A stretch of 64,000 nucleotides of DNA from Cristatella mucedo. Lineage: Eukaryota > Bryozoa > Phylactolaemata > Cristatellidae. Of the stretch, positions 9,901-58,000 are shown one piece after another; position 1 is the first letter of the stretch, and each line of letters begins with the position of its first letter. Below the pieces are notes generated by a model. The model searched no databases. It was not told where the DNA came from and saw only the letters and a program-made list of their open reading frames with translations. The stretch covers positions 1,573,501 to 1,637,500 of the forward strand of contig WPIO01000045.1 of assembly GCA_009760855.2 (NCBI GenBank). Reading direction: 5' to 3'. Made by a program: the position numbers and the translations under genes.

Positions 9901-12900
9901 AGCTGCACAAGCTGCAGTTTCTTCCCGTGGAAGAGTTCTTCTATCGCCGTCAGTTCGAAAACTGCCGGACCCAATTTCTAGAGGTGAGGCAGCTTCTATG
10001 TAAGTCTGTTAGCCGGAGACGTGGAAGTAATGTAGATTACTGCCGAAGTTAAGTTCTGCCCGTGTCTTCTGGAAACCATGTTAGTGGCTCGAGCTGTCGA
10101 GATTGCCACTTCCAGTTCATTCACTTTGTTCACCTGCCGCTATCGTTTAGATGTGAAAACCCGTGTTGTTTCGGTGTCAGGGGGGTCTGCGATCAAATTT
10201 TACAAAGTCGTATTATTGGTCTTATTAACTCGCACACACTTTGTATTTCGTATCCTCGAAGTCGGGCCACGAGGCCAAAAGCAGCAGTTGTGTTTGAGAG
10301 CTGCAAATACTGCTCGTCCTTTGAGTGTCAATATTTTTTTGTTCCTAGACCTTGCACAAGTTTTCTGACTGGACCACTAAGCTGAGCAGCATGGACAAGC
10401 AAGCACTTAAGCAGGTATTTCTTTTCGTCGTCGTCTGCTGGCACGGTGTCTTATCTGGAAGCGCCTCTGCATGCTTAACGATGCTATTTAATGCATTTCA
10501 GAAAGATAAGAGAAGCATAGAGAAAGAGAAAGAAAAATAAAGAGAGCTGAGTCGGGAGGGCGGTCGAGAATCTGGCAAACGGCATTTTCATCGTGTTGGC
10601 ATTGCCCTTCAAACGCCCATGGATTTTTTTATGTTTTTTACTTGGATCAGAAAAAGGAGCAGACTGCCGGGGAGGTGGTGACTTTTTGGTTGTTCCTGCT
10701 GAGGTCCCTGGCTATCTCAACAAAATTAGGCTTGTTCCTGCCCTATTTTCCCAATGCAAAGTCAAGGTCGTCTAAGGATCTTCAATTTGGAGCCATGCTT
10801 CTTTTTTATAATCTATCGATAAACTCTTGTTAGACGTCCTTTCAAAAGCATTCTGTTCTCCCTGGTGCTTTTTTGGTCTAGACATTTAGGCTTTCCCAAA
10901 ATGGGCTGTAGCAAGATTTTAGATTTGCCTGAAATGCCTATTAAATCGGCGCTTCTATGACCGGGATAATCATAGCCTTTTACCGTTTCTTTTTTAGCTT
11001 TTTAAATCATGTCTGTATTCTGCTAAGCAATGATGACCTGCAGTACTTAACCTTGTCCACTTCCCTACTGGTGCTAGCAGTCCTTCAGGTCATTCTCAGT
11101 TACGAGACTTCGTTGTGCCCTGCTCTCACGAAAACCCGGATGATCTCACGGGCGGCTGCCATGATATCAGTACAGGTGGCTACACGGGCGTCTCATATTC
11201 AAAAATAATAATAGCTATCATTATAATAATAATACATTTTATAACGAGCCCTCAGAGAACTCGATCTCTTTCGAAACGCTTTACAATTACTGCAAAGGAA
11301 GAACGGTCAAATAGTCAGTGGTAACATGCTCAATAAACAACAAGAATAGCATGGTTAGAGGTGACATGCACATGGTCAGCATGCAAGTATGGTTAGTGGC
11401 AGCATGCATAAGCACATTAAGGTCGAATCACAGGGACCCACTAAATGCTATCATGAACTGACACATTTATATACTGGGCTAGAAAGGCTGATAGATCATT
11501 CAGTGCGCTGCACTTGTTGTCAGTGTAGATTTATAGAGGGGCCCTCGTATTTTTCAAAGAGAGATATTTTATGTGCCTCATATTTGTGTATTTCCAAAGC
11601 GTGTAACTCACTTCCAACTGACGTTGCAACATTCACCACTCAATTAGGCTCAAAGAGAGGCTAACGTCGCTTGTGTTTCTCCCAGCGATTGCCTTTTGTG
11701 TACATATGCTTGATTCCACCTTAGGCCTGTTGCCCAAGCTCTCGAATAACGAATTTTGTTTTAGTATAAATTTTTGAAAAGCTTAACTAATAGCTTGAGT
11801 GGATAGTAGAAATGATATTTTTTCAAGGTGCCTGAAGAGCTTTTCTTTGGTGATTTTTTTAGAGAAACATCCCCGACGTTGCCCACACCACAATAGCGGT
11901 CAAGGTTTAGCTCCCTTTGCCAAAGGTCAGGCCGTGTTTGTCAAAGGTCAGGCCGTGTAGTTGTCTGTTTTTTATGTTGGCACTGACCTATTGCAGCAGT
12001 GTTAACATTGGCAGGGAGAGTGGTCTGTAATTGCCAGCTGCAATGACTTTTTGGAATTCATTTGTGCAGCTAGGACGGTTGCTCACAACAGCTAGCTGCA
12101 CAATCAGGACTACGAAAGGTTTTGACTAATCATTATGGGAGTAATGGGTTGGTTGATCTTTATATACTAGAAAAGTGTGGCATGCTGACGGTAGTGAGAA
12201 GCCATCGGAGCTAAGCAAAGTAGGAGCTGAGAAGAGTCATCTGACATTAGTCACAAGATGACTGCTCCACTACCTCACAGGAGATGAGCTGGGTCAGTGA
12301 TTAAGGTGTGCACCCCCGAACAAGGTCTGGCCGAGGTCGTGGGTTCGAGCCCAGTGGCATATGTGAAGCACCTAAATAGAGATTAAGTTATCTTGGGGTG
12401 CTATACGAATGAATTATATATTATATTTTAGCGTGCCATGCAGTGCCCCGTATTCTTCGCAAGGCAATAATTACCTTGCATGCTTTTTCAGTTCGAATTC
12501 AATCGTTACTTTTTATCCTTTATAGTTGCTCCTTCCGTTGCGTCAGCTGCTACAGGCCTGTTGTCATCCACAAGTAGTTCGAGGTGCATTCTTGCCCACA
12601 CAGAAAAGGTTTGTTATCGGTGACTGGTGATTCCATCTCCCGGCGTCATGTGATCCATCGTGTGTGCTGTGAAATGTTCTTAATGGTCTTTCGAGTGGCA
12701 TATAAACTACTGCATGATTTGCCTTTATTGTGATTATCGAAGCAAATGGGTTACTGTGACGTATCATTACTAACATGAAACATCCAATGAACATGGCTTA
12801 CTTGATAGTTATAGCTACGAGTAACAACGGCATCGGGGCTTCAATTTATAGACTGCACCTTCAGTGCTCATGCTTCTAAAGCCAATAATCCTTAGCCAAT

Positions 12901-55052: not shown

Positions 55053-58000
55053 CTACAGGTGTGGCATACCATCGCCTTCTGATTGCTGTCCGACGTTGAA
55101 CAAATTCGCGAAGTCGCGCACAGTAGGAGCTACCTCACTTGTCGATTCTTGGCACAGGAAAGCAGGGAAAGCCGAGTTTGCACGCTTTAAAAAAGTCTGA
55201 GCCTCTTCTTCGTAAGTGTTTTTACATACAAAGTGATGAACGTGAGTCGTCCTACAAGAATTAAATTTCGTGAATGATAAAGTTATACCTCCGTGAAACA
55301 TCATTGAATATACAGGTGGCTGCTAGAAGCAGTTCAATATCACAGAGCGTCGGTAACGGCTAATAGCTGTTAAAATTATTCAAAGACTGACTTTAAAAAA
55401 ACAGCAGAACCTCTCAATGATGCATGCAAATTCAAGATGGCCTGCTGTGAGTGAGGCTGTAAAAAAGAGATAATGCCATTCTTTTTTATAGTATAATTAT
55501 CCTGCCAAAGACCTTTGAGTGACCGTGCATGCATCCATACATGTACGACTAAAAATTGACTCACATAGTCAGTGTAATTTTTTCCGAAATTTGAATTAAG
55601 ATGTGGCATAAGTTAAGAAACTAAACGCTGAATCAGAGCCTAAAATCTCGTGATATCTAGTAAAAAATAAAAACCATACATTTTAATAACATTAGAATAA
55701 TCCATTTTTCATATCCCTTAAAGAGCATTAAACGAGATAAGGCAAAAAGCAGACTACACAAATAAACCGTTTTGCTGCTAACATCCTCTTGGAAGTGCCA
55801 TGAGGTGGTAGCTTTTTATCGCAAACGGCAATTATATTTAAAAGAGTTTCTGCTAACACGTCCACATTTACAGACTCATTTCTCCACGAAAGCGAAATCC
55901 TAACCCAAAGTGATGCTAAAAAAATGGCGGAGCCTCTGATTCCTCAGATGAGCTCACTAAAAAAACTTGAATTGGGAAGCGCCGAGTGTTAATCTCAGAA
56001 TAACGCATAGGCTGATCTACTCGCAACAAACCGCTAACTTGCTAGAGACAGGCGAGCTGGTTTGACCCAGTGGGTAAGGTGCTCATCGACCGAAGTCTGG
56101 CCAAGGCCGTGGGCTCGGGCCGTGGCACACATGAAGCGCCTAATTATAGATTAAGATCTGTTAGGGCGCTATACAGAGGAATTATTATATATTAGGACTT
56201 GTAGTAATATTAAGTTGGCCATCTGAAAAATATAAACTCTAGACTTCGTAATGGATTGCTGATTTAGTGAGTGCCAAATTTCAGTTCTGCAGAACAATGT
56301 GCATCTTCCAACGCTGAGCGTACCATACCAGTGATAAATGGTTAGGTTTGGCTACAGGTTAATATTAATAACGCTAATCATGTTAATTCGCAGGCTGAGA
56401 CTGACTGCTGAATAATGAGCTTCAACCGAGCAACCCAGCAACCCAGCTTGATAATCACTATCGTGAGTTACAATCGAAGACCAAACAAATTATCTAAAAA
56501 ATTTCGGATACTTAATGGGGAAATAACTTCTAAGATTGACTGCTGTAGTTACAGTTATTGGGTTTGAGTACGTGTCTCCTTTGCTAAAATAGCTAGGATG
56601 GACGCCGGTTGAGCAACGGATATAGAGCAAAGTTCTTACGCTGACCTACAAGGCCCGCCGCGGCTACGCTCATTCGTATCTAGCTGAACTGCTGCACCAG
56701 TTTCAGCCTCTTCGCGCCCTCAGGTCCTGTGTGGACAAACATTCGCTGTTCCGTTCCTCCGCTTAAAGACCGTTGGCAACAGAAGCTTTAGCTCTGAAGG
56801 TCCTAGACTGTGGAACTCGCTTCCACAATTCTTACGCAACGACAACTAATCTCCTACTGCCGACTATGGCTCATCTTTTTTCAGCAGTCCTGAGCTGCTA
56901 CTTCAATGCTACTCACTACCTCAACTGCCCTCCCGACTCTGCTATGCTTACCACTTTCTCTTTGTTGCATGAGACGAAGTCTGTTGGGTACCGAATGCGT
57001 ACCGAAAGCCGCTTAGGCTGTGAGTGAGCTATACAGAACCCTTCTGCGTAACACCCACATAGTCTGTATGGCTTTGTGGAGTTACAGACGGAGATAAGTT
57101 ACATTACAATACACTGGCACATGTACCGACGCGTGGCCAATGTAATGCATCTTAGAGCACGATAAAAAGACTTCCCCCCCCCCCGGACGTGGGTAAGAGA
57201 TACAAGAAGCTCTTTCAGCGAACATTTCACCTTTCAGAATAAACTCTCATTTGGCCTTCGTATGACCCAATTTCCAACGACGTATAGAGTGAGCGATCCC
57301 AACTCCCGAGTCTAGTGAATGACCAACAACTTCCGATTAACTGCTTATGCACTGAGCTCGTTACTTCACTTAAAAGGCTAAAAAACCACATATATTTATC
57401 AAAGTATTAATTGAGTCCACGTGATTTGTCCTTTGTTTACTAATACGTGGTGACACTGTGTATGCTGCCAGTAACTGCCTTTGCGTTCTGATCCTACACA
57501 TGTCACGTCTAACCACTTTATGCCCGTTGACATTGAGCATGGTACCATTAACCACTTGATCATGCTTCCTTTGATTTACAAACAATACTCAGCAATCTTA
57601 GTCACTGCATGGGCTTTAGCGATTTACAAGAAGAATCCGTATATTCGGATTAATGAGACATCGAGCCAAAGTTTTAGGGGAACGAAAACACAACCGTCCT
57701 TCTACGGGTTTGTGAAAAGCGTCATGCCTAGGTCAGGGTCTCACAACAGTCACCTAAGCACTTCACAGCCAGTCGAGTTCTACGCCTATGTAATCTCTAA
57801 AGATTTATTCACATGAGAGAAAAAGCTACTCGATAGAATGTCTGTAGACAGTTTACCAGCCGATATCATTCGATGCCAGTTTCCCCTGCTCGGAGCTACA
57901 CAAAACATCAATGGCTGCGGAAGGCGGTGTTAAATAAAAGAGGTCGGTCCCAAGTCCTTCACATCACCAATCGTTAGACCGATGTTAAAAAGCTAGTATT

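Follow-up and report, generated by a model that had tools for sequence, protein, structure and literature searches.

A SINE of Cristatella mucedo with a 3' end homologous to that of a local LINE clade

A 64 kb stretch of contig WPIO01000045.1 from the bryozoan Cristatella mucedo (43.9% GC; the whole stretch is called the window here) contains copies of SINE-A, a short interspersed element (SINE) whose 3' end shares homology, on sequence comparison, with that of a local clade of long interspersed elements (LINEs). The clade consists here of LINE-A, with tail types A1, A2, and A3, and LINE-B. SINE-A is best explained as a non-autonomous retroposon of ~145 bp, in which a tRNA-like head of RNA polymerase III type (~75 bp) is followed by a LINE-type 3' end of ~65 bp with no body between them; taken as a whole, we regard this explanation as likely. 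The clade's tail was probably captured onto the tRNA-like head, and SINE-A is probably mobilised by the reverse transcriptase (RT) of that clade. An older member of the clade would have supplied the 3' end, the SINE-A transcript would be bound through its hairpin by the RT of a clade LINE, and the bound transcript would then be copied by target-primed reverse transcription. The copies in the window are listed below, with expectation values (E) from a covariance model built from LINE tails only.

12284-12425, + strand: SINE-A copy 1, tRNA-like head to ~12355 joined directly to the LINE-type tail, hairpin at 12361-12406; E 2e-7; included in a 28-copy alignment
45961-46100, + strand: SINE-A copy 2, decayed, tail from ~46034; 146-column match to copy 1; E 0.22
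56052-56192, + strand: SINE-A copy 3, tail from ~56125; E 2e-4
41939-42090, - strand: probable fourth SINE-A relic, decayed, B-box part apparently deleted; 41.9 bits with a SINE-only model that it was not used in building; E 0.23

The homology is carried by comparison of the four SINE tails with the LINE-A consensus. With the ATT repeat excluded, the tails score 32 (12.3 kb), 21 (46.0 kb), 27 (56.1 kb), and 18 (42.0 kb), and each score was reached by none of 2000 dinucleotide shuffles. The likeness is wider than the hairpin, as it begins ~13 bases upstream of it (GCAWATGTRAAGCGCC) and includes unpaired bases. The LINE-only model, built from 16 LINE-A tails of the window, matches the SINE tails with the values listed above, and the SINE-only model retrieves LINE tails in turn, with a best E of 4e-11. 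The resemblance of the SINE-A 3' end to the LINE-A terminus, reported for three copies in a preliminary description of this DNA, is upheld by the shuffles for these and for the 42.0 kb relic, which that description did not include. Convergence or coincidence on a simple hairpin might be suspected from the short region and its AT-rich ends, but is hardly credible given the matches between the models in both directions and the homology upstream of the hairpin and in unpaired bases; chance likeness is ruled out by the shuffles of all four tails.

The SINE-A copies themselves agree with their earlier description only in part. All three forward-strand copies have the AGCGCC/GGCGCT-like arms ascribed to them (AGCRCC/GGYGCT across the three), and GATTAAG, also ascribed to all three, is found in the 12.3 and 56.1 kb copies only, with GTATCAATC at 46.0 kb. 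The 46.0 kb copy scores 74.5 bits with the SINE-only model, but is itself one of the rows used in building that model. Compared with the heads of the three other copies, that of the 42.0 kb relic matches one, at a score reached by 2 of 1000 mononucleotide shuffles; for the other two the counts are 271 and 76 of 1000. A B-box with at most one mismatch occurs at 12342 and 46019 and is absent by that test from the 56.1 kb copy, and the A-box test is passed at 46.0 kb only. Places with both boxes number three in the window (4275, 13061, and 46019), against a mean of 0.40 and a maximum of 2 in 20 shuffles.

An unbiased sample was taken from five large contigs as twenty stretches of 10 kb with fixed coordinates (200 kb), making 264 kb with the window. 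The LINE-only model gives 63 matches at E ≤1 in the 200 kb, 15 of them with a SINE-A head, and the SINE-only model adds four further headed copies (L035, L031, L038, and L043), giving 19 SINE-A heads in these arbitrary stretches. The 264 kb alignment holds 87 matches, made up of 19 SINE-A rows, 65 LINE tails, and 3 fragments; the fragments are excluded from consensus counts and are included where 68 LINE-type matches are given. The separate alignment of 28 SINE-A copies was chosen by likeness to the 12.3 kb copy and is not an unbiased set. Exact counts cover the whole assembly (572,011,866 bases in 688 contigs), in which a LINE-A 31-mer occurs 5951 times and a SINE 30-mer 266 times, with 0 occurrences of the backward control in each case. 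The count of 266 refers to the TTAGGG form only, which is the rarer one among L002-L028 (3/27, vs. 13/27 for TTGGGG).

The consensus tails of SINE-A, A1, A2, A3, and the LINE-B of the 264 kb fold into one hairpin, in which a 4x2 internal loop separates the lower stem (at least 7 bp) from an upper stem of 5 bp with a UUNAGU hexaloop. The lower stem is interrupted by an A.A mismatch and continues for 3–4 bp in SINE-A, A2, and B, while it runs unbroken for 11 bp in A1 and A3. A consensus from 17 LINE-B copies folds with a 6 bp upper stem and a shorter, symmetrical internal loop. Consensus folding, which had been put forward as a check, returns the same two-stem hairpin for SINE-A and the LINEs, from the 264 kb sample and fetched copies together. 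Among single copies, the 12.3 and 56.1 kb tails are matched in stability by only 3 and 1 of 500 shuffles, respectively. Between the SINE-A and LINE consensuses, 1 of 24 stem positions differs, compared with four or five of the six internal-loop positions (one column is tied). Within copies, decay is alike in the stems (0.13–0.20) and the internal loop (0.16–0.19). As the consensus stems barely differ while copies decay alike in both regions, the stems appear to have been kept in the master elements.

A number of results weigh against a captured tail mobilised by the LINE clade. The 46.0 kb tail alone is marginal with the LINE-only model, and the 46.0 and 42.0 kb tails fold no better than shuffles (49/500 and 110/500). 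Covariation, the other check put forward for the shared fold, failed to support it; in the 16 LINE-A tails it is not significant, with the score reached by 54 of 500 shuffles. Only one pair has two-sided changes (5 of 16 rows), and it contains a CpG position. The observed/expected ratio for CpG is 0.70, and CpG decay on both arms can mimic compensation, which confounds the test. The comparison of stem with internal-loop changes (Fisher 0.007) involves small numbers and regions picked after the differences had been seen. The tRNA origin of the head is unconfirmed, as ARAGORN finds no tRNA and the Rfam tRNA model has no match at E ≤10 in the 12.3 and 56.1 kb copies, the 46.0 kb copy having been searched at the gathering score only. 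The head is called tRNA-like for want of a tRNA model match, and of the earlier term "tRNA-headed" it is the A- and B-box likeness that survives. In one SINE row (L046:8492), a LINE-A 3' untranslated region lies 132 bases upstream. LINE-C, a LINE with a different hairpin, served as the negative control, and against two of its copies the 56.1 kb tail reaches scores found in only 46 and 3 of 2000 shuffles, so the control is not clean for this tail. The other three tails score at shuffle level against them (231–1352/2000), and LINE-C is rejected as their partner.

The internal loop and the terminal repeat of SINE-A add to these difficulties. Of the four SINE internal-loop bases, no more than two occur in any of the 65 LINE tails. 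An ATT repeat ends 52 of the 68 LINE-type matches and only 2 of the 19 SINE-A rows; TATA or ATAT words are seen there in 9/19 SINE rows vs. 5/68 LINE-type matches. The ATT-rich tail that had been described as common to SINE-A and LINE-A is thus not confirmed. Altogether, the 264 kb consensuses show seven SINE-private changes, including one A/G split. When six private positions are scored, at least four SINE states are present in 18 of 19 SINE rows, and at most one in 63 of 65 LINE tails (of the other two, one has two and one has three). SINE-A thus forms its own family with private changes.

These private changes, seen in nearly all SINE rows, could have come from a partner LINE of the clade that bore the SINE-type internal loop and end repeat and is now extinct, rare, or missing from the assembly, which we consider somewhat unlikely. 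No recognisable LINE bears the exact SINE-type tail among 40 fetched of the 266 occurrences; a SINE head is clear in 37 and weak in L066 (score 19) and L071 (score 11), and L068 consists of the tail only. When the SINE internal loop is set in a LINE-context pattern, 248 matches are obtained at up to 3 mismatches, and among the 100 listed, seven have 2 mismatches, the rest 3, and none 0 or 1. Twelve of these places were fetched, of which L113-L115 have a clear SINE head, L112, L116, and L117 have a weakly SINE-like head, L118-L120 are LINE-A of A3 type, and L109-L111 are decayed and LINE-like. However, the absence of such a LINE is one from samples and lists of limited length, and a SINE master may drift in its internal loop unaided after capture. 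L109 and L110 also read CCTGAAAAG, which means that single steps toward the SINE state do occur. A further reading, likewise unlikely, is that SINE-A kept the LINE stems and hexaloop but acquired a new terminal repeat and a largely new internal loop, either by following a LINE that has since vanished or because the RTs of the clade read the stems and hexaloop and tolerate, or even prefer, a foreign internal loop.

The nearest LINE was sought over ~60 positions, where SINE-A differs from A1 by 11 and from A2, A3, and the 17-copy LINE-B consensus by 10 each. The A3 consensus was read from three pattern-selected copies only (L118-L120), which combine GCATATG with the hexaloop UUAAGU. The LINE-B consensus comes from 17 of 20 regions fetched after a DNA search with the LINE-B end; L101, of LINE-A type, was left out, as were L092 and L104, in which a GA repeat interrupts the tail. 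The consensus reads GCATCTG...UUCAGU...CTATACAAATGTATTATT, with an ATTATT end in 14/17. In the 264 kb consensuses (57 columns), SINE-A differs from A1 by 12, A2 by 11, and B by 9. Of 1000 bootstraps, 601 favour B, 204 A2, and 195 A1; omitting the gap column by which B is defined changes these to 423, 305, and 272, and removing CpG columns as well gives 582, 359, and 59. Although the 264 kb favour LINE-B, a clear lead for it does not hold up, as it ties with A2 and A3 on the better consensus. SINE-A shares the hexaloop UUAAGU with A3, and the basal stem and CTATACAAAT with B. From these tails, A1, A2, A3, and B appear about equally near, and there is no preference for A1, which has the most assigned tails and the least decay.

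Mobilisation by LINE-A itself was the proposal of the preliminary description; with LINE-A taken as the abundant A1 form or its relative A3, we judge it rather improbable. The strong tail homology supports it, as does the abundance of A1 (21/65 tails in the 264 kb, and the 31-mer count above), and three A3-type copies have the exact SINE hexaloop. Nevertheless, A1 is at distance 11 vs. 10 for each other type, the lower stem of A1 and A3 is unbroken where SINE-A has the A.A mismatch, and the terminal repeats are unlike. SINE rows are also more decayed than A1, with a mean divergence from their own consensus in the 264 kb of 0.149 vs. 0.093 (A2, 0.130; LINE tails without a subtype, 0.204; B, 0.211). 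The proposal is not supported as worded, as LINE-A subfamilies are 10–11 differences away compared with 10 for B, SINE-A has its own internal loop and end repeat, and 0 of 40 fetched SINE-type tails are on LINEs. Two outcomes had been named as telling against it, namely consensus ends with neither similarity nor a shared fold, or a better match to another LINE; similarity and fold are both found in the 264 kb, but LINE-A is no closer than LINE-B. LINE-A in the broad sense (A2 and A3) is a possible mover of SINE-A.

An older clade LINE with LINE-B or A2 architecture is, tentatively, another candidate for the partner, short of an even chance. SINE-A and the 264 kb LINE-B share one dot-bracket fold, with a 4 bp basal stem and the A.A mismatch, as well as CTATACAAAT and a missing T. 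With gap and CpG columns excluded, all 19 SINE rows are nearer to this LINE-B consensus than to A1, and LINE-B rows are the most decayed. Conversely, the bootstraps are split, 14 of 17 LINE-B copies end in ATTATT, and the 17-copy consensus differs in its UUCAGU loop, GCATCTG, and one extra upper pair, at a distance of 10.

The window is dense in retroposon remains, among which lie parts of a gene for a protein with SHPRH and helicase domains. The LINE-only model gives 26 window matches at E ≤1, including the 16 LINE-A tails behind the model. The LINE features are as follows, the tails being identified with this model except where other evidence is given.

49425-49498, - strand: LINE-A 3' hairpin and (ATT)n tail, A1 type, RT upstream
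49821-50813, - strand: LINE-A RT fragment, 330-aa frame, Pfam RVT_1 E 4.9e-17
36512-36585, + strand: LINE-A1 tail, TTAAGT hexaloop
25171-25244, - strand: LINE-A1 tail
41156-41229, + strand: LINE-A1 tail
17374-17447, - strand: LINE-A1 tail
53715-53788, - strand: LINE-A1 tail
18311-18385, + strand: LINE-A1 tail
5103-5176, - strand: LINE-A2 tail, GTGCC arm
52196-52269, + strand: LINE-A2 tail
1135-1208, - strand: LINE-A2 tail
24337-24410, - strand: LINE-A2 tail
16908-16981, - strand: LINE-A2 tail
14882-14955, + strand: LINE-A tail, subtype not given, RT pieces upstream from ~13526
11222-11295, - strand: LINE-A tail, subtype not given
34273-34342, - strand: LINE-A tail, divergent, subtype not given, TTAAGT hexaloop
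24553-24622, + strand: LINE-A tail, truncated, E 7e-8
8400-8471, - strand: LINE tail with B-type gap, also from the 264 kb alignment
60818-60890, - strand: LINE-B tail CTAGACAAACG, RT pieces upstream at ~61214-62176
15869-15940, + strand: divergent LINE tail, E 6.5e-5
8601-8669, - strand: divergent LINE tail, E 2.3e-4
19955-20029, - strand: divergent LINE tail, weak, E 0.12
63285-63400, - strand: LINE-C 3' end, different hairpin CCACATAGTC/GACTTTGTGG, negative control
51502-51940, 54364-54802, 56839-57115, and 58154-59517, + strand; 38018-38311 and 63285-63709, - strand: LINE-C pieces

Most LINE-A matches have a common 3' end and are truncated at the 5' end at varying lengths. The hexaloops of the 16 window tails are TTGAGT in 10, TTAAGT in two, and TCGAGT, -TGAGT, TTTACT, and TATAGT in one each. 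In the 264 kb, RT lies within 1.2 kb upstream of 13/21 A1, 8/14 A2, 5/21 unassigned (3 fragments included), 3/12 B, and 0/19 SINE-A matches; these counts are lower bounds, as the DNA ends at the stretch ends, and a single RT accounts for two of the three in B. The LINE-C RT protein is ~28–40% identical to that of LINE-A, and LINE-C has a TTACA-like end. Besides its RVT_1 match, the LINE-A RT has distant PDB matches only; from motif likeness, LINE-A may belong to the CR1/L2 clade. A search of the window with all Rfam families gives no match at the gathering score. The Rfam family of the UnaL2 LINE 3' element likewise has no match at E ≤10 in the surroundings of two SINE copies and a single LINE-A tail. 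No relatives were found in viral contigs or GTDB contigs.

The gene pieces, and a second family of tRNA-like SINEs, are placed as follows.

15455-15892, 23945-24232, and 31580-31912: exon-like pieces of an SHPRH-type E3 ligase/helicase gene (Pfam SHPRH_helical-1st, SHPRH_helical-2nd, below its cut-off, and Helicase_C)
4213-4345: SINE-B, which has a GGTTCGAATCC box and, downstream, a hairpin of its own

Weak relatives of SINE-B are seen at 30980-31060 and, by eye, in L033 at ~8670-8753. A SINE-A/LINE tail on the 4.2 kb SINE-B is rejected, since its scores are reached by 345 (LINE-C) and 722 (LINE-A) of 1000 shuffles. A perfect inverted repeat at 46135-46222, with 36-base arms (46135-46170 and 46187-46222), lies ~35 bases past the 46.0 kb SINE and may be a small foldback element. 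Judged by eye, tails of SINE or LINE-B copies lead straight into the inverted tail of another copy (L024 and L106), LINE-A-like sequence (L018), or a long TA repeat (L005), which suggests insertion into AT-rich repeats and older elements.

The sharing of tails between SINEs and LINEs is an established class, to which SINE-A and its LINE clade add a high-copy pair. One survey tabulates dozens of SINE/LINE pairs, among them some from sea urchin and Nematostella in which the partner is a CR1/L2 LINE, and calls the phenomenon general (PMC3747384, Table 1). The invertebrate CR1/L2 pairs it describes (SURF1/CR1-4_SP, SINE2-8_SP/L2-1_SP, and the Nve-Nin-DC-SINEs with L2/CR1 of Nematostella) are comparable, as a SINE with a tRNA promoter (in SINE-A, a tRNA-like head) carries the 3' end of a LINE from its own genome. 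Compared by description rather than by sequence, SINE-A differs from them in having no body between head and tail and an end repeat unlike that of the LINE. Of the features of stringent pairs, tail homology and a consensus stem-loop are found here and the same terminal repeat is not; a common repeat is usual in the examples and is not taken as required.

In the eel pair UnaL2/UnaSINE1, as in SINE-A, LINE and SINE share a 3' hairpin that contains an internal loop and precedes a short repeat (PMC5135761). The eel elements have a GGAUA loop and TGTAA repeat, whereas here the loop is UUNAGU and the repeat is (ATT)n or TA-rich. For UnaL2, the loop, the repeat, and the internal loop are reported as needed (PMC5135761), and the need for the internal loop contrasts with a tolerated foreign loop in SINE-A, if that reading is true. 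The zebrafish L2-clade LINEs ZfL2-1 and ZfL2-2 also have an upper and a lower stem, a loop, and a 3' repeat unit, and they require their own 3' hairpin, above all its loop (PMC4176376). In ZfL2 the loop decides recognition, while here the hexaloop differs by one base and the internal loop differs most. Base 3 of the hexaloop is G in A1 and A2, A in A3 and SINE-A, and C in B, and this difference between LINE families may be a recognition switch. The natural families thus differ in separate parts of one hairpin, namely hexaloop base 3, the internal loop, the basal stem, and the end repeat. Their RNAs could serve directly for finding out what in the hairpin a stringent LINE protein reads.

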